DNA of 39,871 nucleotides from the NCBI GenBank assembly GCA_902787185.1, contig CADAFP010000017.1:1-39871 (forward strand), given 5' to 3'. The position numbers and the translations under genes are program-made. Each line of letters opens with the position of its first letter. Positions within the stretch are counted from its first letter, which is position 1. The DNA comes from an uncultured Bacteroidales bacterium. Its GTDB lineage: Bacteria > Bacteroidota > Bacteroidia > Bacteroidales > Muribaculaceae. Positions 698 to 20,694 of the stretch are shown here, one piece after another. A model generated the notes under the pieces. That model saw nothing but the letters and a program-made list of their open reading frames with translations, made no database searches and was not told the origin of the DNA.

Positions 698-728
698 AAA
701 AATTAGTGCAAGTCGAGTGCAGAACAAA
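698..728 (-). promoter_or_regulatory. Candidate promoter of mce at the edge of the repeat array
   Basis: On the minus strand TTTG (725-728) is followed after 19 nt by TAATTTTT (698-705), one mismatch from the Bacteroidetes -7 box TAnnTTTG. A perfect TAATTTTG also lies at 688-695 but has no TTTG at the right distance. The -33 box and the spacer belong to the repeat unit; see the arrays at 11636 and 20441. Confidence 0.45.
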
Positions 729-880
729 AAGAATTTATTCTTTTTTTTATGCCGAGACGCCGCCTAATTTATCTAAAATTAGTGCAAGTCGAGCGCAGAA
801 CAAAAAGAATTTATTCTTTTTTTATGCCGAGACGCCGCCTAATTAATCAAAAGATTGTGCAAGTCGAGTTGAGCGTCAAA
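698..880 (+). repeat. Tandem repeat array, locus 1 (about 2.3 units, period 75-76)
   Basis: Units start with GTGCAAGTCGAG at 706, 782 and 857. The first two contain a CAGAAC linker, an AAAGAATTTATTCTTT dyad, a T-run and GCCGAGACGCCGCCTAAT. The third keeps only the head and a diverged dyad, and it runs into the stop region of the transglutaminase gene. The same head and tail words occur at 11636-11765 (inverted) and 20441-20694. This array fills the whole spacer between mce and the upstream gene. Confidence 0.85.
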
Positions 881-893
881 TAGAATTTGCATT

Positions 894-3473
894 TTATTTG
901 TCCAGGTTGCTGATGACCTTGGTGAACTGCTCTCCTAAACCGATGGTGTAGCCCTGTGAACAGAAGACCACGCGGTTGAATGTATCGGCAAGAATGAAGA
1001 CGGGCAATTGCGTCTCACTCTGCAGTTTCATCTCCTGGGCAATCTGATGGCGTATGGCACCACCATTGTCGATGCCATAGATGATATTCTTAGGCAACTG
1101 GCCGAAGTTCTCTTGCCTGTACTGCTGGGCTTGGGCCTCGTTTTCAAACAACAGCACAAACGGGCGGCCCCATTTATCCAAATCGGCAGTCTTCTTGGCA
1201 ATATCACGCATGGCATGGTTGGTGGGCTCTTGCCCCACGCCCAGCACACCCACGATGAAGTAGCCGCGCCCCGTCTGGGACAGAATGCTGACAGGATCGC
1301 CCTGAACGGGTTTCAAATCACTGTCAAGCAGTTGGAATTTGGATTCGGAATTGAAATTACCAATGACAGTCACAATGTCATCGCTCTGACGCATGGTCAG
1401 GTTGATGGTGGTGGTCTCGCCGGGATTTACCTTGAAGATGCGGTTGGCGACAAGCACTTTGCCGCTTGCGGCGCGGGTGCCGCTGGTGAGCATATAGGTG
1501 CCGGCATCCAGCGGAGTGCCGTTCTTGAAAGTACCGCTCCACGACGAGCCGTCTTCCAGGCCCGAGTCTCCTTCATCATAGTTCAGCAACTGTGTCGTGC
1601 CGTCATCCAAGATGCGTGAGATAGAGAAGTGGTGGTAATATTTTGGGTTATCGAGCGACTGGGTGGGGGTATAACGCAACTTGAGGAAACCGGTTGAGGC
1701 TTGTTGCTGCTCCACGGCTTCAAAGTCCACATCTTGCCAGTCACTGCCGTTGCGGTACTGCACCTTACCGGTGACGGGATCCATGCGGGACTCGATATCC
1801 AGCGAGCGCGCCAGGTCAACAAAGAAAATGTCTCGGCCACGCTTGTCAGCAACCTTGGAGCGCCATACGCCCATCGGCGTCTGGGCAATGTGCAGGGCGT
1901 TCTCCTCAGGATGGATACTGATGTTGTCACTCACCCAGCGGGCGAGGTCAAGGGGATTGCTGCGGAATCTTGCAACCGTCTGGGCATCAAAGGCATCCTG
2001 AAGAGCCACTTTAAATGGCGATGTAATCATTTCATATTCCACACGTTGTGCCAGTTGGCCGCTACGTGCATTGAAAGCATCCTCGAGGATGGCCATGGGC
2101 ACATCACGCATATCCTTGTCGTTCAGACCAGCCAGCACACCCAGCACACGCTCCATTTTGTCACTATGGCTGTTGGCAAACTCCAATATGGTTTGCCAGT
2201 TACCACGCGCCTTGACCAAATAATCGGCAACAGCGGGACAGAGCGATTGGGCACGCTCGAGGTCAGGGAAGGTGGCCTCATAGGCCTTGCGGATGGAGTC
2301 TTCACGGGCAAAACGCACCTTGTTTTCGGCGGCTTTCTCGGCTGTGACCTTAGGCATGAAGGCCTTCTCGACAGGCGGCACGATGTCAAAGGTCTCGTAG
2401 CTGGGTGCCGCATTGAGGCTATTGCTGCGGGTGAGAACAATATCGACGGTTTTGTCTTTGCCAAATGACACCTTTTGGTAGCCATACCAGCCGTTTTTGC
2501 TGGCCCACACAAGCATATCGCCCTTTCCGGCCGTGAGCGAGGTTTTCCCCTTGCCGTCGGTATATTTGGTGGCGGCAGGGTAAAACTCGCCATAGTTGTA
2601 GATACGGAACTCCACCCTGGCTCCCTTGACGGGATTGCCCGACTTGTCCAATACCTGAACTTGAACCGAGGCTGTGGCGGCATAGTTGCCAATCAGGTTG
2701 ATTTCAGTGAAATTACGGGTTCGTGACATCACCTCCTCAGGACCGTTGTAATCGCCAAAGGCACGCGTATGCATCAGCAAGGCCCTCGATGCGGGAGCAT
2801 TGAACCACCCTAAGTCGAGCACCGCCTCGGGTTCGCAAGCACCCATGAAGTGCCACTTGCCATCGGCCCACGCCTCAACCCACGCATGGTTGTCATCGGT
2901 ATGCGCCCAGCGTGGAGTATAGACCTGGCGAGCGGGAATGCCGATGGAGCGCAGGGCGGCAACGGTGAACGTCGATTCCTCGCCGCAGCGCCCGATGGCG
3001 GTTTTCATGCAGGCCATCGGCGACAAGGTGCGGGCATCACTCGGCTGATAAGTCACGTGCTCATGGCACCAGTGGTTTACCTCCAGGATGGCTTCTTCCA
3101 TGCTCATGCCGTTCACGCGCTCCTTCAACTCCTTGAAAAACTCAGGACGGGACATATCCAGCGCCTCGTTGTTGACACGCAGGGGCAGCACGAAGTGCTT
3201 GAACAGCAGTTCGGGAACCTTTTTGCCCCAAGGCATCTGCTCACGGGCCTCAAAGGTGGCACGCACGTTGTCAAGGTAAAATTGCACGCTGTAGTCGGTC
3301 ACATCGGCAAGCGGCATATAGGCATACAGGAATTTCAGGGCTTCCACCTCTTGTGGTGTCGCATTCAGTCCATTCACGTCGGGCGTTCTCAACGCCTCGA
3401 TGGATTGCGCATTGAGGCTGACAGGCATCAAGGCTGCCATAACCAGTAGCAGAATCACTAATCTTTTCATCAT
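894..3473 (-). CDS. Exported transglutaminase-like domain protein
   Basis: About 859 residues with a signal peptide (MKRLVILLLVMAALMPVSLNA, cleavage before QSIEA), so periplasmic or surface-attached. The transglutaminase/protease core lies at roughly 130-225: IGRCGEESTF carries the candidate nucleophile Cys (about 163) and DDNHAWVEAW the His (about 196). The position after it reads GACEPEAVLD, so the third triad residue is unclear. An Ig-like carboxypeptidase-regulatory segment follows (about 265-350), then a long alpha/beta region with a possible thioredoxin-like or beta-sandwich end. The family is widespread in Bacteroidales, but substrates are unknown to me. The longest frame opens with GTG at 3476; I prefer the ATGs at 3473 or 3470. 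A -7 box TACCTTTG lies at 3501-3508. Confidence 0.8.
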   Translation of the reverse strand: MMKRLVILLLVMAALMPVSLNAQSIEALRTPDVNGLNATPQEVEALKFLYAYMPLADVTDYSVQFYLDNVRATFEAREQMPWGKKVPELLFKHFVLPLRVNNEALDMSRPEFFKELKERVNGMSMEEAILEVNHWCHEHVTYQPSDARTLSPMACMKTAIGRCGEESTFTVAALRSIGIPARQVYTPRWAHTDDNHAWVEAWADGKWHFMGACEPEAVLDLGWFNAPASRALLMHTRAFGDYNGPEEVMSRTRNFTEINLIGNYAATASVQVQVLDKSGNPVKGARVEFRIYNYGEFYPAATKYTDGKGKTSLTAGKGDMLVWASKNGWYGYQKVSFGKDKTVDIVLTRSNSLNAAPSYETFDIVPPVEKAFMPKVTAEKAAENKVRFAREDSIRKAYEATFPDLERAQSLCPAVADYLVKARGNWQTILEFANSHSDKMERVLGVLAGLNDKDMRDVPMAILEDAFNARSGQLAQRVEYEMITSPFKVALQDAFDAQTVARFRSNPLDLARWVSDNISIHPEENALHIAQTPMGVWRSKVADKRGRDIFFVDLARSLDIESRMDPVTGKVQYRNGSDWQDVDFEAVEQQQASTGFLKLRYTPTQSLDNPKYYHHFSISRILDDGTTQLLNYDEGDSGLEDGSSWSGTFKNGTPLDAGTYMLTSGTRAASGKVLVANRIFKVNPGETTTINLTMRQSDDIVTVIGNFNSESKFQLLDSDLKPVQGDPVSILSQTGRGYFIVGVLGVGQEPTNHAMRDIAKKTADLDKWGRPFVLLFENEAQAQQYRQENFGQLPKNIIYGIDNGGAIRHQIAQEMKLQSETQLPVFILADTFNRVVFCSQGYTIGLGEQFTKVISNLDK

Positions 3474-3500
3474 CACTTTTGTTGGTTTTGATTCATCTTA

Positions 3501-3508
3501 CAAAGGTA
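3501..3508 (-). promoter_or_regulatory. Candidate -7 box of the transglutaminase gene
   Basis: The minus strand reads TACCTTTG, a full match to TAnnTTTG, about 28-30 nt before the start codon. No TTTG is seen 19-21 nt upstream, so the -33 element is weak or absent. Confidence 0.4.
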
Positions 3509-3594
3509 ATATAAAGCACTTGGTTATCATCTATATGCTATCGTTTTTTTTCACGATGAACAATGGTTTTCTCACTGTGATGACAGTAGTTATC

Positions 3595-3636
3595 TAAAAA
3601 AAGGAAGCCCCGCGTCACATTGCGGAGCCTCCTTTG
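3595..3636 (-). terminator. Intrinsic terminator after the DPP III gene
   Basis: About 30 nt after the DPP III stop, the minus strand forms a GC-rich hairpin (AAAGGAGGCTCCGC pairing with GCGGGGCTTCCTTT, two imperfect positions) directly followed by a run of seven T. Confidence 0.8.
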
Positions 3637-3664
3637 TTCGTACTATGTCCAGCACTCTTGCTGA

Positions 3665-5665
3665 TTAATGAGTCAGCGGCGAGTAGTCCTGACCGTAGCG
3701 CAGCATCTGGTCGATGTAGCCCTCGGTGTAGGAAACCTTCACGTCGATGAGCTTGCCGTTCTTGTCATACACGGGAGTGTAGATGGGGTTGACAAAGCCC
3801 TTGTAGGGAGCGATGTTCAGACCCTCGTAACGGGCGAGCACTTCCTTGTGGATAGCGGGATCGACCTTCACACCGTAGGTCTCAACCAACTGGCGACCAG
3901 CCTCGTAATCACCCTCGCTCTTGATGCGCTGCACCTCGGCGAGCAGCTCGGCGAACAGGCCACGCAGCTTCTGGTAGTCGTTGATGCGGATATAGGTCTT
4001 GCCGTCGCGCTTCACATACTCGATGACGTTGTCCTTCTTGCCATGCTCATAGCACCACTCGCTGATGAACTTGCGGTTGCGCATGTGGGCCTCCTCGATA
4101 TCCTTGCCCGGCACGATACGCGTCAGCTGCGTCATCAGTCCGTTCATGATATACTTGTAATACTCGGCCTTGTAAGTCTCCATGTCGGGGAAAATGCCCA
4201 ACTCCACGAGTTTGGGATCGGCCAGGTAATACAGGGCGAACAGGTCAGCACGGCCTTCCTCGAGCGACGAGCCATAGGCCTTGAGGGCATCCTGGTCAAC
4301 ACCGGGCAGCAGTTGGCCCGAAGCGTGGCCGAGGCACTCGTGCAGGTCAGTATGCAGGGCGTCGGCGATGTCGAGATACTTCTTCATCAGTTCGACCTCA
4401 ACATTGCTGTAGGCAAACTCCTCGTTGAAGCCTGTTCCGGCAGCCACCTTGTTGTAGGCGTCGGTGATGTTGTCGATAGATACCGACTTGGAGCCGTGAG
4501 CGGCACGAATCCAGTTGCTGTTAGGCAGGTTGATACCGATTGGGGTTGAAGGATAGCTGTCACCAGCAAGGATAGCGGCATTGATGACCTTGGCGCTCAC
4601 GCCCTTAACGTTTTTCTTCTTGAAACGGTTGTCAACGGGCGAGTTGCTCTCAAAGTACTGTGCGTTCTCACTGATGAGTTTGGAACGGCGAGAGGCGGCT
4701 TTGTCCTTAAAGTTGACCATACCTTCCCAAGAGCCAGTCATGCCCAGGGGGTCGCCATAGCTCTCGATGAAACCATTGATGAAGTCCACCTCGCTTGAGG
4801 TCTCCTCGGCCCACATGATGCTGTAGTCATCAAAGGTCTTGAGTGAACCGGTCTGGTAGAACTTGATCAGCTCGTTGATGTAGGCACGCTGTCCCTCGTT
4901 CTCGGCAACAGTTGCGGCCTTCTGGAGCCAATAGACGATTTTCTCGATAGCCTTGCTGTAGAGACCGCCCACTTTGTAAGGTTCCTCGACAATCTTACCG
5001 TTTTTCTTCACTACCTTGCAGTTCAGGCCCCATGAGATAGGAGTAAGGTCGGTGGTGTCCTTGAGGTTATTATAGAAGTCCTCAACTTCCTGCTGGGTAA
5101 CGCCCTCATACATGTTGCATGCCGAAGTGAGAATCAGGTCTTCTCCGTCGGCTTGGTTGACACGCTTGGCCATGAATGTGGGGTCAAAGATGACGCGGTC
5201 GAGCACCTTCTTCTCACTGGCGCGCTTGCTTGCTCCGGGCAGGGCGGCAAACTGCTTGTCAAAGAAATCCTTGGAGAACTCGGGCACGAACTTGTCCATC
5301 GAGTAGTGGTGATGGATACCGTTGCCGAACCACACCTGCTTCAAATACTTCACAAAGGCCTGGTAGTTCTTGTCGTCCTTTTTGCCCTTGTAGTTGCGGT
5401 AAATGTCCTCAAGGGTCTGGCGAACCATCAGGTTATATTTGCAGTTCTGGTCAAACAGGATGTCGCGGCCATTGAGAGCAGCCTCGGTGAGGTAATAAAC
5501 CAGTTCCTTCTGCTGCAGCGAGAGTTCCTCAAAGCCAGGAACCTGATAACGCAACACCTCGATGTCAGCAAATCGGTCAACCGAGTAGTTAAAGTCGGTG
5601 TTTTGAGCCATAGAATTCATGGATAGCGCTGCCATAGCGAGGGCAGCAAGAATCATTTTTTTCAT
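3665..5665 (-). CDS. Dipeptidyl peptidase III-type metallopeptidase (M49)
   Basis: A 666-residue zinc dipeptidyl peptidase, near the usual bacterial length. DPP III releases dipeptides from the N-terminus of short peptides. The hallmark zinc motif HEXXGH is present as HECLGH (His442), and the second motif follows about 30 residues later as EEGRAD. The N-terminus MKKMILAALAMAALSMNSMA is a signal peptide with cleavage before QNTDF, so this copy is exported, probably periplasmic, and would work on peptides taken in from the gut lumen. Its start is the ATG at 5665. The small lipoprotein gene lies just upstream on the same strand, 114 nt away, and a strong terminator lies downstream. Confidence 0.92.
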   Translation of the reverse strand: MKKMILAALAMAALSMNSMAQNTDFNYSVDRFADIEVLRYQVPGFEELSLQQKELVYYLTEAALNGRDILFDQNCKYNLMVRQTLEDIYRNYKGKKDDKNYQAFVKYLKQVWFGNGIHHHYSMDKFVPEFSKDFFDKQFAALPGASKRASEKKVLDRVIFDPTFMAKRVNQADGEDLILTSACNMYEGVTQQEVEDFYNNLKDTTDLTPISWGLNCKVVKKNGKIVEEPYKVGGLYSKAIEKIVYWLQKAATVAENEGQRAYINELIKFYQTGSLKTFDDYSIMWAEETSSEVDFINGFIESYGDPLGMTGSWEGMVNFKDKAASRRSKLISENAQYFESNSPVDNRFKKKNVKGVSAKVINAAILAGDSYPSTPIGINLPNSNWIRAAHGSKSVSIDNITDAYNKVAAGTGFNEEFAYSNVEVELMKKYLDIADALHTDLHECLGHASGQLLPGVDQDALKAYGSSLEEGRADLFALYYLADPKLVELGIFPDMETYKAEYYKYIMNGLMTQLTRIVPGKDIEEAHMRNRKFISEWCYEHGKKDNVIEYVKRDGKTYIRINDYQKLRGLFAELLAEVQRIKSEGDYEAGRQLVETYGVKVDPAIHKEVLARYEGLNIAPYKGFVNPIYTPVYDKNGKLIDVKVSYTEGYIDQMLRYGQDYSPLTH

Positions 5666-5736
5666 TTTTGTTGTCAGTTTATGTTTTTTTCAGGCATTAA
5701 ACATTAGTTTTTTGGTGATAGGGGTTGCGGATGCCA

Positions 5737-5775
5737 CCTAATGCCTATAGCCTAATGCCTAATAATGCCTAAAAC
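5737..5775 (-). repeat. Post-stop word repeat, lipoprotein to DPP III spacer
   Basis: Directly after the lipoprotein stop codon the minus strand holds three to four copies of TTAGGCATTA-like words within about 40 nt. The 3' half shares the phrase TTTTAGGCATTA with the spacer at 6310-6333, so the lipoprotein gene is flanked by matching short direct repeats. Confidence 0.6.
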
Positions 5776-5779
5776 CAAA

Positions 5780-6241
5780 TTACTTACTATTTGTGCCGTG
5801 GTAAGTGATATCCTTGCTGTTCATAATCACGATTTCCTCCTTACCGGGGGTCGTGTTGATGATGTAGTTGTTACCCTGGTCGTCTTTCATCAGGTAACCG
5901 TTCTTCTGCATAACGCATTTTTTGGTAGTAACAACACGCTCGGGAGCGGTAGCCTTGTCGGCACCCGGTTTCCACAGCGACAGACGGATGGAGCCGTCAG
6001 CGAGGTTCTCAAGGCGCACCTGGTAATCCTTGGTGTTAAATTCGGCCACAGTGTGGTCTTTGCCATCCTCGGTGGGTTTCACTTTCTCGACGCCGACAAT
6101 TGCTTTGTTCTTAGCGGTATCGGCTTGCTGAGTAGCTTCAACTTTGGTCTCGGGAGCCTGAGCCTCTTTGGCGGGCTTCTCGTTACAAGCGGTCATGGCA
6201 ATCATGGCCACAGCAGCAAAAAGAATAGATAATTTCTTCAT
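5780..6241 (-). CDS. Small hypothetical lipoprotein
   Basis: About 153 residues. The N-terminus MKKLSILFAAVAMIAMTAC is a lipoprotein signal with a lipobox ending in Cys, so the protein should be anchored in a membrane. A charged, low-complexity linker rich in Lys, Glu, Ala and Gln follows, then a globular part of about 100 residues ending KDITYHGTNSK. I do not recognise the domain. The frame also opens at a TTG at 6247, but the ATG at 6241 begins a typical MKK signal sequence. It lies between rlmI and the DPP III gene on the same strand, with word repeats on both sides. No function can be inferred. Confidence 0.7.
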   Translation of the reverse strand: MKKLSILFAAVAMIAMTACNEKPAKEAQAPETKVEATQQADTAKNKAIVGVEKVKPTEDGKDHTVAEFNTKDYQVRLENLADGSIRLSLWKPGADKATAPERVVTTKKCVMQKNGYLMKDDQGNNYIINTTPGKEEIVIMNSKDITYHGTNSK

Positions 6242-6309
6242 TGTCAATTAGTTTGAATTATTAAGTAGTTTGTTTGAAATTTTCAGTATGTAGGGCCTCG
6301 CCTTGCGTG

Positions 6310-6333
6310 GCCTAATGCCTAAAACCTAAAGAA
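6310..6333 (-). repeat. Post-stop word repeat, rlmI to lipoprotein spacer
   Basis: Immediately after the rlmI stop codon the minus strand has three copies of TTAGG within 24 nt and includes TTTTAGGCATTAGGC, which recurs on the other side of the lipoprotein gene. Confidence 0.5.
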
Positions 6334-6334
6334 C

Positions 6335-7516
6335 CTACTCCACATAAAGCACCAACCCTTTCAGGTACTCGCCCTCGGGGTGGTAGATGTTGATGGGATG
6401 GTCGGCAGGTTGGGTGAGTTGGTGCAGGATGCGCACTTTGCGGCGTGTCTGGGCTGCGGCACTGAACACCGCGAGGCGGAACTGCTCCTTGTTCACAGCC
6501 TGTGAGCAGGAAAAAGTGAACAGGATGCTGCCATGAGGCATCTTTTCCAAGGCCTTGGCATTCAGGCGGCGGTAGCCAATCAGCGCATTACGCAGGGCGC
6601 TCTTGTGCTTGGCGAATGCTGGCGGGTCAAGGATAATCAAGTCATAGGCGTCCTTCTCCATATTGTCGAGGAACTTGAAGGCGTCCTCGGCAAAGGACTT
6701 GTGACGTCCGTCCTCGGGAGCATAATTGAGCGCTACGTTATCATCGGTAAGGCGCACCGCCTTGGCCGAGCTGTCCACCGAGTGTACCATCTCAGCACCA
6801 CCCCTGAGGGCATATACCGAGAACCCACCCGTGTAACAGAACATGTTCAGCACCCTGAGTCCCTTGCTGTAACGCTCGAGCAGACGACGGTTCTCGCGCT
6901 GATCGACAAAGAAACCGGTCTTTTGTCCCTTGAGCCAATCAACATGAAAGCGCAGGCCGTTTTCCAGTGCCTCGTCGGTTTCCATGCCTCCGACAATATA
7001 ATCATTAATCGGGTCAAGATGAGCCTTGTAGGGTAGGGTGGTCTCACTCTTGTAATAGACATTACGGATGCCAGGCAACTCAGTGAGTGCGTGGGCAATG
7101 ATATCGCGGGCAAAGTGCATTCCGGGCGAGTGGGCCTGCATAACGGCGGTGGGGCCATAGATATCCACCACCAGACCAGGCAGGAAATCGCCCTCGCCAT
7201 GCACCAGGCGATAGGCGTTATTGTCGTCGCGCTGAAGCCCCAGCGACTGTCGCATGCGGTAGGCATCGCCCAAGCGTTGCTTATAGAACGCCTCGTCGAT
7301 GGCGGTGTCATCAAACGTAAGCATCCTCACGGCAATGCTTCCGATTTGAGAATGGCCGTTGCCGATAAGTGTGCCGTCGTGGGCATAGACCGTCACCAGG
7401 TCGCCCTCCTCGATGGTATCGTCGGCAGCAGCGATAGCGCCTGAGAACACCCAGGGATGGAATCGTTGCAACGATTCCTCCTTGCCGCGCTTAAGAGTTA
7501 CAGTTTTATAGGTCAT
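6335..7516 (-). CDS. rlmI: 23S rRNA (cytosine-5) methyltransferase, RlmI family
   Basis: A 393-residue class I SAM-dependent methyltransferase. RlmI methylates C1962 of 23S rRNA in E. coli. The N-terminal PUA domain (residues about 1-75, with FHPWVFSGAI) is followed by a central segment and a Rossmann methyltransferase domain. Motif I is seen as VLNMFCYTGGFSVYA with the acidic residue in VHSVDSS, motif IV as LIILDPPAF, and a Cys in FTFSCSQ. Length and order fit RlmI/YccW proteins. The start ATG overlaps the rseP stop codon by four nucleotides (ATGA), which points to translational coupling in a dxr-rseP-rlmI transcription unit. Confidence 0.9.
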   Translation of the reverse strand: MTYKTVTLKRGKEESLQRFHPWVFSGAIAAADDTIEEGDLVTVYAHDGTLIGNGHSQIGSIAVRMLTFDDTAIDEAFYKQRLGDAYRMRQSLGLQRDDNNAYRLVHGEGDFLPGLVVDIYGPTAVMQAHSPGMHFARDIIAHALTELPGIRNVYYKSETTLPYKAHLDPINDYIVGGMETDEALENGLRFHVDWLKGQKTGFFVDQRENRRLLERYSKGLRVLNMFCYTGGFSVYALRGGAEMVHSVDSSAKAVRLTDDNVALNYAPEDGRHKSFAEDAFKFLDNMEKDAYDLIILDPPAFAKHKSALRNALIGYRRLNAKALEKMPHGSILFTFSCSQAVNKEQFRLAVFSAAAQTRRKVRILHQLTQPADHPINIYHPEGEYLKGLVLYVE

Positions 7517-8928: not shown

Positions 8929-8978
8929 TTTACTTTGTTAGTCAATCTAAATTGTATTGAGTACCTGTTTTCAAGAGG

Positions 8979-10148: not shown

Positions 10149-10158
10149 GTCAAAGATG

Positions 10159-10189
10159 CAAAATTACGCATTTTCCCGATAACGGCAAG
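10159..10189 (-). promoter_or_regulatory. Candidate promoter of the dxr-rseP-rlmI unit
   Basis: Minus strand: CTTG (10186-10189, one mismatch to TTTG), 19 nt spacer, then TAATTTTG (10159-10166, full match to TAnnTTTG). The dxr start codon follows 10 nt further on, which implies a very short leader. Confidence 0.55.
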
Positions 10190-10240
10190 CGGTTTTTGAG
10201 AAAAACAATATTCACCACCATCCATGGCTCATCAATCATT

Positions 10241-11509: not shown

Positions 11510-11561
11510 TTTGTTGTATATGTTTTATTGGTATTGTTGCTGATGTAAAATATTACGGCTG

Positions 11562-11569
11562 CAAAAATA
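11562..11569 (-). promoter_or_regulatory. Candidate -7 box of the PatB-like gene
   Basis: Minus strand TATTTTTG fits TAnnTTTG; it lies 52 nt before the start codon. The -33 position offers only TGTG (around 11588-11591), so the match is partial. Confidence 0.4.
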
Positions 11570-11664
11570 CTTAAATTTCACCAATCGCACAGAAAAAAAG
11601 CAAATAATAATTGCTCATAAATTATTTCGTATAATAGGCGGCGCCTCGGAATTGCTCAAATAAA

Positions 11665-11696
11665 TTTGGCATTTCGCTCGACTTGCACTAATTTTG
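11665..11696 (+). promoter_or_regulatory. Distal candidate promoter of dapF within repeat unit A
   Basis: TTTG (11665-11668), 20 nt, TAATTTTG (11689-11696). The duplicate of the proximal promoter, 69 nt further upstream. Confidence 0.55.
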
Positions 11697-11733
11697 GATA
11701 AATTAGGCGGCGTCTCGGAATTGCTCAAATAAA

Positions 11734-11765
11734 TTTGGCATTTCGCTCGACTTGCACTAATTTTG
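11734..11765 (+). promoter_or_regulatory. Proximal candidate promoter of dapF within repeat unit B
   Basis: TTTG (11734-11737), 20 nt, TAATTTTG (11758-11765): a complete Bacteroidetes promoter made wholly from repeat sequence. The expected transcript start is near 11771, giving a leader of about 28 nt before the ATG at 11799. A TTG start at 11763 would fall inside the -7 box, so that longer frame is unlikely. Confidence 0.7.
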
Positions 11766-11798
11766 CACATCACTTGTTATTCAAATTCATATAAGGTT

Positions 11799-12632
11799 AT
11801 GAGCGACAAAATACATTTCATGAAAATGCACGGTGTGGGTAACGACTACATCTTTGTGGACACTGCACTTTACCCGATTGCTGACCCTCAGTCTGCCTCG
11901 ATTGCTTGGAGCAAACCACACACAGGCATCGGCAGTGACGGTCTGGTGCTCATCGGACGGGGTGAGACTCCCGACGTCGATTTCACCATGCGCATCTTCA
12001 ATGCCGACGGCTCCGAAGGGCTGATGTGCGGCAACGCCACCCGTTGCATCGGCAAGTACGTCTATGAAAAGGGGCTGACCGACAAAACGTGCATTCGGTT
12101 GCTCACAGCATCAGGAATGAGAATCCTTAACCTCAAAGTAGATGAAGGGCAAAGAAAGGTGAAGTCGGTAACCGTTGACATGGATGCACCAACACTGGAA
12201 AACACGTCGCTGTTCAAGCCCGAAAACAAGGAATCGCTGCCTGAGGGCGTGTTTGTGTCGATGGGCAACCCCCATTATGTCATTTTTGTCGATGACCTTG
12301 ATAAAGTGGACGTTGCTGCCTCTGGCTCACGCCTTGAACATCATCCCTGCTTCCCTGAACGATGCAACATCGAGTTTGCCCAAGTGACACCCGACGGCAT
12401 CAGAATGCGCGTGTGGGAACGCGGCAGCGGCATCACTATGGCTTGCGGCACCGGAGCTTGTGCCACGGCAGTGGCCGCAGCGGTGACAGGCCAATGTGAC
12501 AGAATGTCCCGCATCATCATGGATGGCGGGACACTCGAGATTGAATGGAGTGCAAAGGATGGCCACGTCTATCTGAGTGGACCAGCATCCTTTGTCTATG
12601 AAGGCGATATAGAATTGCCCGAGACCGACTAA
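11799..12632 (+). CDS. dapF: Diaminopimelate epimerase
   Basis: A 277-residue PLP-independent epimerase that turns LL- into meso-diaminopimelate for lysine and peptidoglycan synthesis. The two catalytic cysteines are in MCGNATRC (Cys77) and ACGTGAC (Cys216), each in one of the two mirrored domains. The N-terminal [15 protein letters not shown] is typical. I choose the ATG at 11799 because the frame upstream of it (TTG at 11763) overlaps the promoter and adds an unrelated dozen residues. It is the only plus-strand gene before 20 kb. Its stop codon overlaps that of the convergent ATP-grasp gene by four nucleotides. Confidence 0.96.
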
Positions 12633-13729
12633 CGTCCGGAATTATAGACAAGGTTAAGAATCTTATCGGTCATGTCGCCAAAGATGGGGCCGTTACACAT
12701 CTGGTGGATGTTGACGCCACCGAAGGTGAGGTTGGCCTCAATGATCATCGGGTCACCGTCCTCGTCGATGGCGAGGTCCCACGAAACAAGCGGGGTGGAC
12801 GAGCTCAACCTGGCTGAAACCGAACGGACCAATTCCACACATTTGTCATAACCCACAAGTTGGAAGTCCTTGAAGACGGCTCCCTGCGGATGCTTAAGCC
12901 ATTTCTTGCCGGTCTTGTCGAATGCCACCTCACGCAACTTGCCGTCTGGCTTGATGCCCACGGCAAGACCACCGTTGCTGGTGTTATCCACTTTTGCTCC
13001 GTCACGCCCCATCCTGAGGACCGATGAGATGATGTGCACCTCACCATCAAGTACTAAAGACATGATGCGCAAGCTGTTGATACTCCCCGCATACAACTGG
13101 TTGATGGCCTCATGCTGACGCACAACACACTGCACAATCAGGTCATGGGGATACTCCAGACATTCCTTCAATGCTTCCTCGGCACCGCTTTCCCTGAAAT
13201 CGACAAAACAAATGCCCTTGCCGCCCTCGGTGTTACGGGCGGGCTTGCTGATGACAAGCCCTTCCTTGCGACACAGTTCCACCGCCTGCTCAACCGTGAT
13301 GGGGTGGTAATCCTTGTCAAGGAGCAACCCCTTACACTTATGGATCACCGTCTTGGGCATCTTGATGTCATGAAAATACATGTCATACATGTTCTTGTCG
13401 TCAAGCTCATAGCTGCGGCGTGGATCGGTGAAGAAGAAGTCCACCTCGGCATAATAGATGTCATCAGGGATATAACGCTTGATGTCGGCTTTGCCGTCAC
13501 TACACCAATTGTAAAACTCAAACCACCTCAAGTCTTTTGACACGTCACGATAGTTCTTCCAATATGCCACGATGTCACGGCGCTGCTCATCGCTCAGGGG
13601 CACAAGGTTGCCCAGTTTAGGCGTTAAGGTGCGCTCGGCGACTTTCATGCGGTTTTTCCTCAAGTGGTTATCCTTGGCCTCGGCAAGCTTGCGAACCAGG
13701 TAACTGCGGATGTTGCTTAATAGTATCAT
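12629..13729 (-). CDS. Sugar-transfer-associated ATP-grasp protein, copy 1
   Basis: A 366-residue protein resembling the family called sugar-transfer associated ATP-grasp, often found near polysaccharide genes. The N-terminal 110 residues are helical and basic. The ATP-grasp core starts near residue 150 ([20 protein letters not shown]). Glycine-rich loop TEGGKGI, and the metal/ATP end [19 protein letters not shown], with a Glu-x-Asn pair, are present. There is no signal peptide, so it should be cytosolic. It lies 17 nt downstream of its paralogue (13747-14853), with which it shares long stretches such as [13 protein letters not shown] and [11 protein letters not shown]. The substrate is unknown. 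An ATP-grasp ligase is the safe level of the call. Confidence 0.75.
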
Positions 13730-13746
13730 GTCAGTTATTTGATATA

Positions 13747-14853
13747 CTAACGTTTATTGTGGTAAATGTAGGAGAGCATTCGGTCGGTCATGTCACCAAA
13801 AATGGGACCATTACACAATTGATGGATAACCACACCGCTATAGGTCAGGTTCACCTCAATAAGGATGGGTTCACCTGCGGGATCGATAGCAAAATCCCAT
13901 GACATGAGTTTAGTAGTGGTACACATCCTCCCGGCCAAGCGTCGCACGACATCATGGCAACGGTCAACGCCTACAATCTGCGTACCCTTAAAAACAGTGC
14001 CCTGGGGATGTTGTGACCACCGTTTGCCATACTGGTCAAAGGCATACTCCTTGAGCCATCCATCGCTAGAGACGCCCGTCATCATACCACCCTTGCTGGC
14101 GTTATCGACCACGGCGCCGCCTTGTCCCATCCTGATGATGGAGGACAGGATATGAACCTCACCCTCAAACACGAGCGACATGACACGTATGGTGTTGATG
14201 CTCGAGGGATGGATGCGGCTTATGGACTCATGCTGCTCGATAACTCGCTGCACATTGATGTAACGATTCTTGTTCTTCTCCAACCACTGCTTGAAGTCTT
14301 CAGGAGAAGTGGATGTAAGGTCGACAAAGGAGACACCATAACCACCCATCGACAAGCGAGCCTCCTTGCAGACGACACGCTGAGCCTCCTGGCACAAGGC
14401 CAATGCACGATCAATGGTGATAAGTTGATAATCCTTATCCAGAATCACTCCATCCATTATCCTAATGACTGTCTCAGGCATCGGAACGTCATGGAAGTAC
14501 AAGTCGTACATGTTCTTGTCGTCAAGGTCATCACTGCGGCGTGGATTGGTGAACGGGAAATCCATGTCGGTGAAATAAACGCCATCGGGGATATAATGCT
14601 TCAACTGTGACTTGTCGTCACAAAATGCGTTGTAGAACGCAAACCAATGCATCTCCTTGTCGATATTGCGATAGGGTTTCCAGTAGGCTGAAATTTCCTC
14701 ACGCTGGGCCGACGTTAACTCAAGGGCGTACGGAGCTTTGAGCGGAAAAATCTGCTTGGCTCGCCTTTTGCGTGACAATCGCACCAAATCCTCGGTGTAA
14801 AACCTCTCAAAACGATCCCGCAAACCTATCCGTATTGATGCTATCTTGTTCAT
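13747..14853 (-). CDS. Sugar-transfer-associated ATP-grasp protein, copy 2
   Basis: A 368-residue paralogue of the next gene, roughly half identical by eye over the full length. Shared landmarks are [20 protein letters not shown], the INTIRVMSLVFEGEVHILSS strand, and the C-terminal SWDFAIDPAGEPILIEVNLTYSG with the Glu-x-Asn pair. It comes first in transcription and has a promoter candidate about 66 nt upstream of its ATG. The pair looks like an old tandem duplication. No glycosyltransferase or capsule gene is nearby, which is unusual for the family as I know it, so the pathway is open. Confidence 0.75.
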   Translation of the reverse strand: MNKIASIRIGLRDRFERFYTEDLVRLSRKRRAKQIFPLKAPYALELTSAQREEISAYWKPYRNIDKEMHWFAFYNAFCDDKSQLKHYIPDGVYFTDMDFPFTNPRRSDDLDDKNMYDLYFHDVPMPETVIRIMDGVILDKDYQLITIDRALALCQEAQRVVCKEARLSMGGYGVSFVDLTSTSPEDFKQWLEKNKNRYINVQRVIEQHESISRIHPSSINTIRVMSLVFEGEVHILSSIIRMGQGGAVVDNASKGGMMTGVSSDGWLKEYAFDQYGKRWSQHPQGTVFKGTQIVGVDRCHDVVRRLAGRMCTTTKLMSWDFAIDPAGEPILIEVNLTYSGVVIHQLCNGPIFGDMTDRMLSYIYHNKR

Positions 14854-14918
14854 TTCTAGTCTTGTTTGAAATCACATTATCCAATCCTGTTGCTAAGGCA
14901 CTACTGCTATGCAAGTCA

Positions 14919-14949
14919 CAAAAGTATAATAATTTAGCCAATCGACACA
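14919..14949 (-). promoter_or_regulatory. Candidate promoter of the ATP-grasp pair
   Basis: Minus strand: TGTG (14946-14949, one mismatch to TTTG), 19 nt, TACTTTTG (14919-14926, full match). It precedes the upstream paralogue and would serve both genes. Confidence 0.55.
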
Positions 14950-14995
14950 TTGCAGTTTTGGAAAAAGTATGAGTCTGTGAAGGCTTAACAGGCAA

Positions 14996-17900
14996 TCAGT
15001 TCACTCCCAGGTCTTTGAGAACACGCGGGGCGGGTGTCTTGGGCATGGGCTGGCGGTCCTTGAGTTGCTCAAGGATGACCTCGATAGCCTTGTCGAGCTG
15101 CTGGTCGATGCCGTTGAACTCCATCACGGGATCATTGTCGATGATGATGTCGGGATCCACACCGTGATTCTCGACAATCCAGTGGCCACGAGTGTCATAG
15201 TTAGTGAAGAACGGGACGCGAATGTCGGTGCCATCCATATAGGGCAGAGAACCACTGATACCGACAATGCCACCCCATGAACGGGTACCGATGACGGGAC
15301 CAATCTTGTTCTCCTTGAAACTCCAGGGGAACAGGTCACCGTCGCTGGCACTGTACTTGTTCACCAGCAACACCTTGGGACCGTAGAGCGTGCGCTCGGG
15401 AATCGTGCCGTTGTAGCTGCTGCCGCGATACATGGTCAGTCGGTAAGGTTGGCGCAACAGGCGCTCAATCACCATCGGGGAGATGTTGCCACCGCCATTA
15501 CCACGGTCGTCAACGATAAGGGCCTCCTTGTCGGTCTGGGCAAAGAAGTAGCGTGAGAACTCGCGCAGGCCCTCAGGACCCATGTCGGGGATATAGACGT
15601 AGCCCACGCGGCCACCGGTCTTCTCGCTCACGTAGTCGATGTTGTGCTGCACCCACTCGAGGTGATAGAGGGGATACTCGTCCTGAATGGGTTTGACAAT
15701 GACCTTGCGGTTGCCGTTGATGGTCAACTCGGTCATCACGTCGGCCTTGTCGCGCAACAGGGTATAGATGTTGGCAACACCCTCGGTCGTCACACCGTCA
15801 ACAGCGGTTATGACGTCACCTTCCTTGACGTTCATGCCAGGCTCGAGCAGCGGTGAGCGCAGCGTCTCACGGTCGGGAGCGCCACGCAGGATTTTGGTGA
15901 TTTTATAGCCGTTGGCAACTTGCTGCAGTTCTGCGCCAAGCATGCCGATATTGTGCTGCTCGGCAGTGATGTGGTCACCACCGTCAACATAGGCGTGGCC
16001 AACTGCCAGCTCGCCAATCATACCACCGATGACGTAAGTCAAATCCAGGCGGTTCTTGACGTAAGGCAGCAGAGCGGCATATTTGTCATGCATCGCCTGC
16101 CAATCGACGCCGTGCATGTTCTCAAGATAGAAGCCGTCACGGTAGGCACGCCAGGCCTCGTTAAAGATCTGGTTCCATTCCTGCTCATAATTGACCGTTG
16201 CGATCATATCATTGAGGTTAACAGCTTCATTGAGCTCAACCTTGCGGGGAGCAAGAGGAGCGATATAGAGGTTGTCCCCCTTCATGTAGGCTGCGGTCTT
16301 CATATCGGCCGAGGGAACCATCATGGCACGGTCGGCAACAAGCTCGTCCTTCTGCTCGGCAAAGTCAAACACGCGCACACTGCCACGGCCACTGTACCAC
16401 AGGTGACTGCCGTCACACACGAAGTTCCCGTAACTGCCAGTACCCACGGGCACCTTGACAATGCGGTCGGTTATGCCTTCGATGTCAATACGGATAGCAT
16501 TTTCATCAACTTGCTTTTTACCCTTGGCGGCTTTCTTGTCCTTGGGAGCGTCCTTAGGTGCATCTTTGGCCTTGTCACCATTGGCCATCACCTGGTCGTC
16601 CTTGAGGAGGAAGGGTGAGGGGGTATCCTTAGCCAGCATCACCAGGTAGATACCCTCCATATCACGGTAAGCAAAGTTCCACTCCACGCTGCTGTAGATG
16701 GGATTGAAATCGCGTGCCGAGGCAAAAATCAGATACTTGCCGTCGCTGCTGAATTCTGGCGAATTGCTTTCATACCAGCGGTCGGTCACGGGATATTCCT
16801 TGCGCTCTGCGATATTGTACAGGTAAATTACACTGAACTCGTTGGCACCCATACGGGAGTAGGCGAGCCACTTGCCGTCGGGCGAGAAACTAGGAGTGGG
16901 GATTTCGCCCATTTCGTCCTGGATGAGGGTCTGTTTAGCCAGTGTCTTGACATTAAGCAGAACCATGCGGTTCTTACGGTCGGTATAGACAATCTGACTA
17001 CCATCAGGACTCCATACCAGATCACTGATGTAGGTGTCGTTGTCCTTGGTCAACTGGATGGCTTTGTCACTGCCCACGGGGCGCATCCAGATCTCGGTCT
17101 CGCCGGTCTGATCGCTGATGTAGGCGATATTCTTGCCGTCGGGGCTCCACATGGCATTGCGCTCATGCACACCGGGGGTGTGGGTGATGTTGCGTGTCAC
17201 GCCATGCTTGGCAGGCACGTCGAAGACCTCGCCACGGGCACTGATGACAATGCGGTTGCCGTCAGGGGCAAGGCTGGCAGCCGTCAGGTTGTCCTTGACC
17301 TTGCGTTGTTCCTCACGGGCAAAATTGTTCTCACTGTTCAGAAAAACCGTAATCTTCTCGCTGCGCTTGGTCACGGGGTCAAGCACATACAGGTAACCAC
17401 CGTTTTCAAACACGATTTTGCCACCGCCACAGTTGGCGAACTTCACGTCATATTCGGTGAAGTCGGTCACCTTCTGCGTAGCACCTGTACGGGTGTTATA
17501 CACAAAGATATTCATGCGGTTATCACGGTCGCTCATGAAGTAGATTTCGTCGCCAATCCACATCGGGTCGATGTCCTGAGCGATGTTGTTGGTGATATTG
17601 GTCACGCTCTTGGCCTGAGTATCGTAAATCCAGATGTCATCGGCCATGCCGCCCTTGTAGTATTTCCAGGTGCGGAACTCGCGGAAGACGCGGTTATAAG
17701 CCATCTTGGTACCGTCGGCATTATAGGAGCAGAAACCGCCCTCGGGCAATGGTAACTGCTGGGCCATACTACCGTCGATGGGGGCACACCACAGTTTGCC
17801 GTCAAAACTGTCACTGATGCGGTTGCGGTAAATCACGCCCTTGCCGTCAGGAGTCCACGTCATGGTGATGTTGTTGGGACCCATGCGGTCGCCCCAATCG

Positions 17901-18229
17901 TCACGGGGATTGCTGGCAGTGAACGTGATACGGCGGGGCTCGCCACCTTCAGCTGGCATGACATAAACCTCGGTATTGCCATCATACTGGCCAGTAAAAG
18001 CGATGGTACGTCCATCGGGAGAATAACGGGCAAAAGCCTCGTAGCCCTTGTGGGATGTCAATTTACGCGCCATGCCGCCACTGATGGGCACAGTGTAGAT
18101 GTCACCGGCATAGCTGAAAGCCACCTCACTGCCATTGGTACCGGGAAAACGCAGCAACCGGCCCTCATCGGCTTGTGCCGTCATTGCCATAGCAGCAAGT
18201 GCCGCCATCAATAAAACTTTTTTCTTCAT
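14996..18229 (-). CDS. Tricorn-type S41 serine peptidase, exported
   Basis: A 1077-residue tricorn protease homologue. Tricorn-type enzymes degrade peptides into small fragments. The signal peptide MKKKVLLMAALAAMAMTA is followed by QADEG, so the protein is periplasmic. Residues about 25-560 form beta-propeller repeats with YSPDGRTIAFTG, WSPDGKNIAYIS and FSPDGKWLAYS (PD40/WD40-like). A Lys/Asp-rich linker at about 560-590 is probably flexible. The helical C1 part (HGVDWQAMHDKY, with candidate His), a PDZ domain (about 755-850), and the S41 core with DDRGNGGGN and YSASDGD (candidate catalytic Ser about 962) follow. It lies 36 nt after the glycosidase-like gene, which suggests co-transcription. 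Confidence 0.92.
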   Translation of the reverse strand: MKKKVLLMAALAAMAMTAQADEGRLLRFPGTNGSEVAFSYAGDIYTVPISGGMARKLTSHKGYEAFARYSPDGRTIAFTGQYDGNTEVYVMPAEGGEPRRITFTASNPRDDWGDRMGPNNITMTWTPDGKGVIYRNRISDSFDGKLWCAPIDGSMAQQLPLPEGGFCSYNADGTKMAYNRVFREFRTWKYYKGGMADDIWIYDTQAKSVTNITNNIAQDIDPMWIGDEIYFMSDRDNRMNIFVYNTRTGATQKVTDFTEYDVKFANCGGGKIVFENGGYLYVLDPVTKRSEKITVFLNSENNFAREEQRKVKDNLTAASLAPDGNRIVISARGEVFDVPAKHGVTRNITHTPGVHERNAMWSPDGKNIAYISDQTGETEIWMRPVGSDKAIQLTKDNDTYISDLVWSPDGSQIVYTDRKNRMVLLNVKTLAKQTLIQDEMGEIPTPSFSPDGKWLAYSRMGANEFSVIYLYNIAERKEYPVTDRWYESNSPEFSSDGKYLIFASARDFNPIYSSVEWNFAYRDMEGIYLVMLAKDTPSPFLLKDDQVMANGDKAKDAPKDAPKDKKAAKGKKQVDENAIRIDIEGITDRIVKVPVGTGSYGNFVCDGSHLWYSGRGSVRVFDFAEQKDELVADRAMMVPSADMKTAAYMKGDNLYIAPLAPRKVELNEAVNLNDMIATVNYEQEWNQIFNEAWRAYRDGFYLENMHGVDWQAMHDKYAALLPYVKNRLDLTYVIGGMIGELAVGHAYVDGGDHITAEQHNIGMLGAELQQVANGYKITKILRGAPDRETLRSPLLEPGMNVKEGDVITAVDGVTTEGVANIYTLLRDKADVMTELTINGNRKVIVKPIQDEYPLYHLEWVQHNIDYVSEKTGGRVGYVYIPDMGPEGLREFSRYFFAQTDKEALIVDDRGNGGGNISPMVIERLLRQPYRLTMYRGSSYNGTIPERTLYGPKVLLVNKYSASDGDLFPWSFKENKIGPVIGTRSWGGIVGISGSLPYMDGTDIRVPFFTNYDTRGHWIVENHGVDPDIIIDNDPVMEFNGIDQQLDKAIEVILEQLKDRQPMPKTPAPRVLKDLGVN

Positions 18230-18265
18230 AATGTAACCTATATTTAATTGTTATTACTGTCATCT

Positions 18266-20425
18266 TTAAAAACTAATCACCCTCACGTGAACCGGTTCAC
18301 ATGGCGTGAACGACTTGGGTAACCTCAACTGGCTCACGGTGATGACATTGTCGCCCTTGAGCAGTTTCACTCTTACCATATTACTATAGGCCAGCTCATC
18401 GCCCTCGGCTTGGTTGCCCCTTGCCAGAATCAGCGTGCCCATCGGGTGGCCATTAGCCATCACCTTGCGCACGTCGAGCGTTCCTGTCGGACGGTAACCG
18501 ATGTCCAGCAGGTAATCGCCGCCACGAGCAACACTCACATTAACCACCGCCGTGTCGCTCTCGACATTGGGGAAAAACGCTACTTGCGGTGTCAGGTGGA
18601 AACTAAGCAGGGGTTTTGACATGAACCCATTCAGATAGCTGCCAGCCACCTCTACCGAGAATTCAGTGTAGCCTTCGGTTTCGGGAAGAACAAACACCGA
18701 GTCGTTCAAATTGGATAATTCACCATTCATCGACAGACGATAGGGGGTGCCCGGCACAAAATCCACAATGCGGCCCGTGTCGTTGCTCCACACTACTGTC
18801 GGCGTCAACGGGAGGGTAATCTCGTTGCGGTGGATGGTGACCTTCTGCGTCTTGCGTTTATTCTGCTTGAGGGTGATGATGATGTGGTGATGTCCCTCGA
18901 TGTCACTGGGCAGGAAGGCACTTTCAAGCGGATTGCCATTGTCGGTGATTGAGGCGATATCGTTGCCAATGCCCTCGATGGTGAAGTCAAGCACGGCCTT
19001 GCGGTAGTTAAGGCCATTAAATGTCTTTTTCCCTGGCATCCCATCAGGAACCATAGGCTCAAACTCGATGCCCTCGGGCTTGAAACTCATACCCAAGAAT
19101 ACGCGCAGGATCATCGCCACATTGCTGGCGCTGGTACCCAACTCGTCAATGTTGATGTCCTTCAAGTGGATGCCTCGCGACTGGTAAAGCGCCTGGGCAC
19201 GGTACAAGGCACCCAAGCCTCGACGCAGGGCGTTCTCATTACCCGTATAGGCGGCAGCCATGTTCCACAGTGCCTGGGTGGTCGCCCAGGATGAATTGGC
19301 GAAATAAGGCTCCAGGGGATTATTGGTGGGATATGTGACGTTCACACCCTTGTCCGAGACAGGTGTGTTGGCAATGAGGTTCTCGGCCCGGTCATCGTCG
19401 GCAATGCCCCACAACACACTCATCGCCTGGGACGTGTTGTCGGTCGTGGGAGACTGGCGCATAAATGCCATGCCATAAAGGAAGGAACTGTAAAAGCCCT
19501 TGTCTTCGTCCCACAGATGCTGATTGATGGCATCCTTAAGGTGCTGAGCGTCGTCGTCATAGGTATTCTCAATACCCAGTTCATCGCACATTTCGCCCAA
19601 AATGGCATAGGCATGTGAGGTCAAAATATTATTTCCCAGCGACATGCAGGCAAACAGGTCGTTATAACCCATCCAGGTCATGCGTCTGACGCCAAGCGGG
19701 CGGGATGTGGTGTAGCCTGCACCATGAATCAAGCCTGTGCCGTTGTCCAGCAACACATTGCGGTTGATATTGAGCGTCTTCTCGATAACGTGTTTGCTGT
19801 AAGCCAGCCACTTGCGGTCACCAGTGGCCTTATAGACTTCCCAAGCGGCCGTTGCCCAGCCGATGTGGTCGCTCACTACAGGCCACTGACCCTCACGCTG
19901 CATGATGATGCTGTCACGGTCCACGAGCGTGCGTAATGTTGCCATCGACTGGTGAGGCTTGAGACAAGCCAAAGAGAGGAGAATGGAACAGTACAGCCGG
20001 CTGATATTGTGAGTCACATTAAAGCGCCCGTTATTGTCGATGGCATCGGCAATGCGCTCTACCGACATATTATATAAGGCGTCAATCAATGGCTGAGCAC
20101 TCTTATATTCAGGCATCATGGCAGGACGGGTCTGGCGCATACGCCACGGCCTGCCATGAGTGAACTTTACTCGCGAGGTATCCACATGACCATAAAGGCT
20201 GTCTAAGCGACCCATCGTGATATTCGTCTCGATGCGATCAGGCTTGATGGCGACAGCAAACACGGTGTCCTCAATCACGCTGTCACCTGTCAGGGTGAAT
20301 GTCTCGTTTTGCACGATCACGCGGTTACTCATCTCGCTGCGACCATGGCAACCAGACAACAAACCAATGCTTACGGCAATTACCGCAAGCGTCACCGCAA
20401 TGCTTTGCATCCTGTTATGCTTCAT
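18266..20425 (-). CDS. Six-hairpin glycosidase-like lipoprotein
   Basis: A 719-residue lipoprotein: the N-terminus ends in GLLSGC (Cys26). The middle (about 110-440) has the helical rhythm and the aromatic/GNE-rich loops of (alpha/alpha)6 six-hairpin glycosidases, for example GQWPVVSDHIGWATAAW and NSSWATTQALWNMAAAYTG, and is followed by beta-sandwich segments. The exact GH family is unclear; alpha-L-rhamnosidase- or glucosidase-like families are possible. Probably acts on glycans at the cell surface or in the periplasm. The start may be the ATG at 20425 or the internal one at 20410: the promoter at 20433 leaves almost no leader for the first. The tricorn gene follows 36 nt downstream. The third repeat array is immediately upstream. 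Confidence 0.7.
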   Translation of the reverse strand: MKHNRMQSIAVTLAVIAVSIGLLSGCHGRSEMSNRVIVQNETFTLTGDSVIEDTVFAVAIKPDRIETNITMGRLDSLYGHVDTSRVKFTHGRPWRMRQTRPAMMPEYKSAQPLIDALYNMSVERIADAIDNNGRFNVTHNISRLYCSILLSLACLKPHQSMATLRTLVDRDSIIMQREGQWPVVSDHIGWATAAWEVYKATGDRKWLAYSKHVIEKTLNINRNVLLDNGTGLIHGAGYTTSRPLGVRRMTWMGYNDLFACMSLGNNILTSHAYAILGEMCDELGIENTYDDDAQHLKDAINQHLWDEDKGFYSSFLYGMAFMRQSPTTDNTSQAMSVLWGIADDDRAENLIANTPVSDKGVNVTYPTNNPLEPYFANSSWATTQALWNMAAAYTGNENALRRGLGALYRAQALYQSRGIHLKDINIDELGTSASNVAMILRVFLGMSFKPEGIEFEPMVPDGMPGKKTFNGLNYRKAVLDFTIEGIGNDIASITDNGNPLESAFLPSDIEGHHHIIITLKQNKRKTQKVTIHRNEITLPLTPTVVWSNDTGRIVDFVPGTPYRLSMNGELSNLNDSVFVLPETEGYTEFSVEVAGSYLNGFMSKPLLSFHLTPQVAFFPNVESDTAVVNVSVARGGDYLLDIGYRPTGTLDVRKVMANGHPMGTLILARGNQAEGDELAYSNMVRVKLLKGDNVITVSQLRLPKSFTPCEPVHVRVISF

Positions 20426-20432
20426 TCACTGC

Positions 20433-20463
20433 AAAGGTAGTGCAAGCCGAGCGGAAAACAAAA
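20433..20463 (-). promoter_or_regulatory. Candidate promoter of the glycosidase-tricorn unit at the repeat edge
   Basis: Minus strand: TTTG (20460-20463) inside the repeat, 19 nt of repeat head as spacer, then TACCTTTG (20433-20440) just outside it. All boxes are exact. The predicted transcript start is close to 20427, only a few bases from the ATG at 20425. Confidence 0.65.
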
Positions 20464-20694
20464 GAATTTATTCTTTTTTTTCCCGAGGCGCCGCCTACCT
20501 TGCCCGAGCAAAGCGAGGGAACGGGTGCAAGCCGAGCGGAAAACAAAAGAATTTATTCTTTTTTTTCCCAAGGCGCCGCCTACCTTGCCCGAGCAAAGCG
20601 AGGGAACGGGTGCAAGCCGAGCGGAAAACAAAAGATTTTATTCTTTTTTTTCCCAAGGCGCCGCCTACCTTGCCTGAGCAAAGCGAGGGCAAGA
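20441..20694 (+). repeat. Tandem repeat array, locus 3 (three units, period 85)
   Basis: Units start with GTGCAAGCCGAGCGGAAAAC at 20441, 20526 and 20611. Each has an AAAGAATTTATTCTTT dyad (one base changed in unit 3), a T-run, a GCGCCGCCTACCTTGCC block and a CGAGCAAAGCGAGGG tail. The first two units differ by one base or so, so duplication is recent. Head and GCCGCC block are shared with loci 1 and 2; the extra tail is unique to this locus. In the last unit CTTGCC and GGCAAG can pair. Confidence 0.9.

Follow-up and report, generated by a model that had tools for sequence, protein, structure and literature searches.

A dispersed, covarying hairpin repeat of Bacteroidales whose outer stem matches a promoter −7 box

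Why do tandem repeats lying between genes in a Muribaculaceae contig (CADAFP010000017.1) turn one end, which looks like a promoter, toward a start codon? The stretch analyzed here, called the window throughout, is 39,871 nt long, and an earlier note made from its letters had described three intergenic arrays with common words and read them as a promoter cassette. Our analysis revealed that the three arrays are tandem copies of one dispersed repeat family and that each unit can fold into one hairpin; the cassette turned out to have a hairpin structure, with an outer stem that is also a −7 box. Two features absent from the earlier note are this covarying hairpin and the mutual complementarity of the left and right edges of the unit. 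Tandem Repeats Finder (TRF) recovered array 1 at 698–869 (period 75, 2.3 copies), array 2 at 11635–11765 (period 69, 1.9 copies) and array 3 at 20440–20689 (period 85, 2.9 copies). The head word GTGCAAGYCGAGYG starts exactly at seven positions in the window (706, 782, 11675 and 11744 on the minus strand, 20440, 20525 and 20610), and with one mismatch at 857. At up to three mismatches the head word was not clearly more frequent than chance (20 matches against 11.9 expected in the window, equaled in 4 of 100 shuffles); the longer edge word GACTTGCACTAATTTTG, at the same tolerance, gave 6 matches against 0.11 expected and was reached in none of 100 shuffles. The arrays and their common words were thus found where they had been reported.

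The unit follows the plan 5'-CAAnnnnn|GTGCAAGYCGAG-variable stem-loop-CGAGRCGCMGCC|n'n'n'n'n', in which the inner stem, one pyrimidine/purine (Y/R) pair and the outer 5-bp stem covary. The predicted hairpin runs from the outer stem through a short G-C block with an AA bulge, a GYC/GRC helix and opposed GA/GA (CGAG/CGAG) to the variable inner stem-loop. In the dominant class of the window's own genome the outer stem is CAAANNTA/TANNTT, and the head end read outward is TANNTTTG; units with the head edge CAAANNTA are called the box class below. A regular expression that fixes two core words yielded 139 units in 119 arrays from named genomes, with 113 non-identical first units; all counts from named genomes hold among the matches listed. 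The Y/R position was C-G in 116 of the 139 units, T-A in 14, T-G in 7 and C-A in 2. The rest of the core words is invariant because the regular expression fixes it, and the outer and inner stems lie outside the pattern. CAA stands eight bases before the core in 82 of 113 units. The edges are complementary over 5–6 nt with letters that vary from copy to copy; the feature considered in this comparison was the constant terminal inverted repeats of miniature inverted-repeat transposable elements (MITEs).

Pairing was analyzed in 27 diverse units of one length class (inner length 28), obtained from 50 by keeping those in which at least 5 of the 7 inner pairs form and removing redundancy at 90% identity, a selection that favors the inner stem and not the outer stem. 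In this set 93.2% of the cells were paired, compared with 73.1% in shuffles, and 127 cells had changed on both sides, compared with 38.5; the covariation score was 0.543, against 0.170 when shuffled and at most 0.100 in slid controls. The outer stem was also scored in unfiltered named-genome units. Box-class units had 4.70 of 5 positions paired (permuted 3.86, largest of 1000 permutations 4.09) and non-box units 3.98 of 5 (permuted 1.88, largest 2.37). Mismatches of the outer stem and the Y/R pair leaned to one strand, with 31 G·T and 13 A·C (p = 0.010). When four examples were folded as DNA, the two strands formed similar hairpins; z ranged from −0.98 to −4.75 for the GTGCAAG strand and from 0.12 to −4.21 for its complement. 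On either strand such single-sequence folding is weak to moderate, and the case for the hairpin therefore rests on covariation.

The main Bacteroidetes sigma-factor promoter, as given in PMC7366714, has TAnnTTTG at −7 and TTTG near −33. The −7 word occurred at the head edge of 70 of the 113 named-genome units. CAAA, which is TTTG when read outward, lay 19–20 nt from the box inside the hairpin in 51 of these 70 units and in 7 of the 43 others (p = 3e-9), and rows of the own genome gave 21 of 28 box arrays and 4 of 15 others. Most box units thus match the −33/−7 layout of this promoter class in sequence, and their head edges are predicted promoters. For orientation, gene calls followed a simple longest-frame rule, and arrays overlapping a called frame (12 of 72 box, 14 of 47 other) were omitted. 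The head faced a start codon in 53 of the 56 box arrays with a left gene (60 kept), the tail in 21 of 53 without clear bias (Fisher head versus tail, p = 3e-10), and the head of non-box arrays in 18 of 28 with a left gene (33 kept). In the own genome, where 43 of 44 arrays could be placed (the C80 array was left out) and 5 of 28 box arrays overlap a frame, the head faced a start in 20 of 23 box arrays, the tail in 13 of 22, and the non-box head in 6 of 9. Orientation was therefore not random in either set, random orientation genome-wide having been named beforehand as the outcome that would speak against a promoter cassette. The claim that one end is always a promoter went too far, since 43 of the 113 units lack the CAAANNTA head and non-box arrays show only the modest facing just given.

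Repeats of this family occur dispersed in Bacteroidales genomes from gut and rumen. The covariance model matched the own genome 60 times (E ≤ 0.001) in 44 arrays, 15 of them multi-unit; the exact 14-mer head word occurred 19 times, and a two-part pattern 17 times (reversed control 0), with one match, at C3:68937, that is not unit-like. Within the genus, model matches were found in 56 of 61 genomes (best 85 or fewer candidates per genome), most of them with dozens of matches each and the highest count at least 85, and the two-part pattern in 54 of 61, in a loose list that includes likely chance matches in coding sequence. Named genomes held at least 119 stretches, all in records assigned to Bacteroidales, Bacteroidia or families and genera within them. 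Prevotellamassilia timonensis (L152) is one named carrier. Taking the best candidates per genome at E 1e-5, the model matched 26 of 198 genomes in an order sample, the own genome included, and in a phylum sample of 247 the own genome only. Carriage by phages was set aside, as only 4 stretches matched in a viral collection. In four Alistipes loci (L132, L142, L165, L172) a longer dispersed repeat, which has a second hairpin of the type GTGCAGAGCC...GGCTTTGCCGAG, seems to enclose the unit, and L172 also holds a copy without the unit. At L141 the unit lies, with its tail side, directly upstream of letters that by eye resemble the start of a tRNA gene (GCGGAAATAGCTCAGTTGGTAGAG).

Two occupied/empty sites, one in comM and one ahead of the gene that follows dapF, exhibited precise insertion beside CAANNNNN. 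At both, X-CAANNNNN-Y of element-free relatives corresponds to X-CAAnnnnn-hairpin-n'n'n'n'n'-second small hairpin-CAANNNNN-Y. In genus genomes the second site lies in the gap between dapF and its downstream neighbor, a gene of the same strand with the protein start MINQQLLNPKSIVVIGG. The empty locus L215 reads GCAAAGGTA-ATCAAAATTCCC; in the filled loci L217, L218 and L225, two copies of CAAAGGTA (the inner copy in L225 with one change) enclose a unit plus a second small hairpin, and the inserts measure 79, 78 and 79 nt, respectively. Each of the three has an element-borne TTTG 20 nt from TACCTTTG. L215 has the native TTG-N20-TACCTTTG, which in L217 and L218 stands behind the insert and in L225 has an altered spacing. 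The head faces the start codon from a distance of 224, 44 and 219 nt in L217, L218 and L225, respectively; L217 and L225 have about 170–180 nt extra between start codon and head box that are absent in L218, possibly another insertion into the same promoter. The two sites support past movement; the pattern after dapF reads equally as gain in three genomes or as loss in L215.

In the own genome, a second, partial copy of comM contains a 75-nt insert that keeps the frame and reads GAC-CAACTGTT-unit-AACAG-AAGCCGTAGG-CAAATGTC-ATCT. Among 29 comM loci of relatives, 24 read CAGATGTC, 4 read CAAATGTC (CARATGTC in 28 of 29) and 1 differs; the own intact copy reads CAGATGTC. Since the left copy pairs with AACAG and the right copy is a native form, the element seems to carry its left edge along. 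The same site argues against templated copying of the target, in which the left flank would serve as template for the right edge: there the left CAACTGTT and not the right CAAATGTC matches AACAG. Right copies were recognizable in 25 named units; in 20 of these the inner letters agree with the left edge, and in 11 with the right copy. Array-versus-array comparisons and composite repeats (L095, L152, L147, L224, L229 and the Alistipes loci L132, L142 and L165) were not counted as empty sites. Several genus genomes have a full-length comM (Mg_chelatase) frame with one or two partial copies within a few kb (L394, that is G000:C16:9178-9408 and 12807-13037; G007:C28, G024:C5, G033:C12, G049:C18, G052:C28 and G055:C30), as if something integrates and regenerates part of the gene.

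In the window itself, Pfam bore out the labels dapF (DAP_epimerase) and mce (glyoxalase families). Array 2 consists on the minus strand of a gene-distal unit (11631–11696; 75.1 bits in the R1 covariance model), with the box TAATTTTG at 11689–11696 and TTTG at 11665–11668, and a gene-proximal unit (11700–11765; 82.0 bits), with TAATTTTG at 11758–11765 and TTTG at 11734–11737. Both have a spacer of 20 nt, so the two units make two complete −33/−7 sets, the nearer box lying 41 nt from the dapF start (ATG at 11799). With starts extrapolated from the protein match, a TANNTTTG box was found no more than 80 nt away in 27 of 29 fetched dapF loci that lack a unit there; the window unit therefore sits on a native −7 position. 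Array 3 comprises three plus-strand units: a gene-proximal one (20432–20501; 66.9 bits) with the box CAAAGGTA at 20432–20439 (TACCTTTG on the minus strand), CAAA at 20459–20462 and a 19-nt spacer, a second (20519–20586; core from 20525; 43.1 bits) and a third (20604–20671; core from 20610; 40.0 bits). Its tail (20666–20693, plus strand), assigned by reading next to the TRF array end at 20689, joins the right edge to a linker hairpin (TACCTTGCC...GGGCAAG). The array faces a glycosidase gene on the minus strand (18266–20425), which matches the Pfam MGH1-like glycoside hydrolase (GH) family just above cut-off. Its box lies 6 nt from the called ATG, which suggests either that the transcript has no leader or that translation begins at an ATG further on. 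Boxes and TTTG spacings had been proposed for arrays 2 and 3, and both are in place.

The situation at mce is different from what had been proposed. Array 1 has plus-strand units at 698–770 (head flank 698–705, hairpin core from 706; R1 60.5 bits; also delimited by TRF) and 774–845 (core from 782; 57.1 bits), and at 857–870 the remnant head of a third, with one mismatch to the head word. Its edge box is TAATTTTT (698–705), which had been taken for the −7 box of mce. Comparison of the letters with other mce loci revealed an intact native box TAATTTTG outside the array (688–695, minus strand), 2 nt nearer mce and 67 nt from its start; 29 of 30 fetched mce loci, that of the window among them, have a TANNTTTG box at a distance of 66–68 nt. 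With this box intact and the array directly upstream, the element can only have replaced upstream sequence. A decayed counterpart of the array was found in genome G009 (L264). Of the promoter-cassette reading as a whole, dispersal, local expansion, the orientation of the box class, the TTTG-N19/20-TANNTTTG layout and precise insertion at two sites held up; its universality and the mce box did not.

We consider it somewhat probable (about 0.6) that the repeat is a dispersed, non-autonomous element in hairpin form: its outer stem is at the same time a −7 box, and by landing on a native −7 box it would make a new complete promoter. The element would land beside CAANNNNN resembling its own outer stem. 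If the target were a native −7 box, the new copy would set a complete element-borne promoter, −7 and −33, before the gene, and the native promoter would come to lie some 80 bp farther from it; further units would arise in tandem, each adding another −33/−7 pair. An extension that we regard as doubtful is that the cassette aims itself, its outer stem acting as a guide that base-pairs with native −7 boxes and steers insertion. Because the guide stem is also the −7 box, each insertion would then swap in a new upstream promoter half and keep the transcription start, and the count of tandem promoters would follow unit number. Through copying of the repeat, the control of the adjacent gene could be rewired. 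If the element works as proposed, one short sequence would be both mobile hairpin and promoter, its target preference would explain why it lands where a gene can be driven, and promoter recruitment and swapping in Bacteroidales would become directly testable. Bacteroidales intergenic regions may hold element-derived promoters, which matters for reading regulons and comparing strains.

Several points weigh against the hairpin-element reading. Only two occupied/empty sites were available, most of the genomes used are metagenome-assembled, and at mce array 1 does not supply the −7. The own genome alone gave p = 0.047 for head versus tail (Fisher; head alone against one half, p = 0.0005), and in the A1 alignment alone the strand test was not significant (17 G·T against 9 A·C, p = 0.17). 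Because box and non-box units mostly belong to different subfamilies, the association with the −33 word could be shared ancestry. A right-hand copy of CAA+N was exact in 12 of 112 units (permuted 2.8), and 25 copies at one mismatch were barely above permutation (16.4, largest 24); the second hairpin and the target copy are therefore often decayed or absent. Counts of units and of Y1_Tnp matches over the 61 genus genomes showed no correlation (Spearman −0.02).

The same observations have to be weighed under other explanations. Insertion beside CAANNNNN at both occupied/empty sites, and the −7 box that unit-free relatives already have at the same place at dapF (27/29) and mce, would equally be expected of a selfish hairpin with a taste for CAAANNTA sites that happen to be −7 boxes, in which case orientation would reflect the target and no working promoter would be present. 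CAAA at exactly 19–20 nt within a freely varying stem, common in box units and rare in others, argues against this, and we think it unlikely. That the repeats are old and fixed, spread by slippage or gene conversion with mobility lost, is possible though not favored: the decayed counterpart of the mce array and the filling of the after-dapF site in three genus genomes agree with it, and the precise element-free sites and the patchy presence of the family (25 of 197 other order genomes, from best candidates per genome) do not. Strong covariation and the lean of G·T to one strand could indicate a structured RNA, either a cis-regulator or a small RNA. We hold this to be highly improbable, because in 53 of 56 box arrays the left gene points away from the element, leaving no neighbor on that side to read into the structured strand, the proposed promoter would start transcription outside the hairpin, and no Rfam family reached its gathering score over the window. 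A loose-filter Rfam search, covering array 2 only, gave a sub-threshold manA-II match at 11593–11654 (minus strand; 17.6 bits with a cut-off of 100, E 1.2) overlapping the array 2 tail, most likely by chance. Twister and k-turn RNAs were considered as well and dropped, because the three-nucleotide bulge is missing from the GA motif here and Rfam gave 0 matches above cut-off.

A repetitive extragenic palindrome (REP)/bacterial interspersed mosaic element (BIME) family moved by a host Y1 transposase of the REP-associated tyrosine transposase (RAYT) type would explain an imperfect hairpin of one strand, a feature of REP/RAYT systems that covariation and the lean of 31 to 13 reproduce. Y1_Tnp matches are present in 55 of 61 genus genomes, and one own-genome unit (G000:C10:31469-31539, L367) lies 234 nt from a Y1_Tnp frame, the single instance among four own Y1 matches. 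Against this, 20 fetched Y1 loci with about 1.5 kb of flank contained 0 units by the model and 0 by the pattern, six genus genomes with no Y1_Tnp match hold 30, 55, 9, 48, 9 and 43 units, and all five unit-free genus genomes have Y1_Tnp matches; several of these eleven are incomplete. The REP/RAYT foot GT[AG]G spans the hairpin foot in only 14 of 113 units. A Y1/RAYT mover is thus supported neither by adjacency nor by co-occurrence, and we judge it quite unlikely.

Literature searches for the motif letters, Prevotella intergenic repeats, mobile promoters and Bacteroidetes RAYTs listed no description of the hairpin element. Putative mobile promoters are non-coding, multicopy sequences with a promoter at an edge, spread before genes. 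The hairpin family resembles them in being multicopy (60 matches in 44 arrays) with a predicted edge promoter before genes, and differs in that the predicted promoter is part of a covarying hairpin, its −7 box being the outer stem. BrickBuilt of Porphyromonas gingivalis, for which lacZ fusions in E. coli demonstrated outward promoters (PMC4596501), consists of 23-nt repeats within a MITE having small inverted-repeat ends; the present family is likewise intergenic, tandem and from Bacteroidales, whereas its hairpin units are 69–85 nt long, with periods of 69, 75 and 85. For TnpA-Y1 subclass 2.6 of Bacteroidetes, PMC6006769 describes a gene flanked by atypical structures. These structures, compared with ours by description and not by sequence, and REP/BIME share with the family short hairpins, copies elsewhere in the genome and occurrence in Bacteroidetes; unlike REP/BIME, the family has neither a conserved GT[AG]G foot nor a unit in the 20 Y1 loci. 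GTAG/CGTC-tagged palindromes are also small palindromic repeats, the CGTC type being reported from Bacteroidetes too, and these REPs are said in PMC3733652 to lie predominantly downstream of coding regions, whereas box-class units of the hairpin family face start codons.

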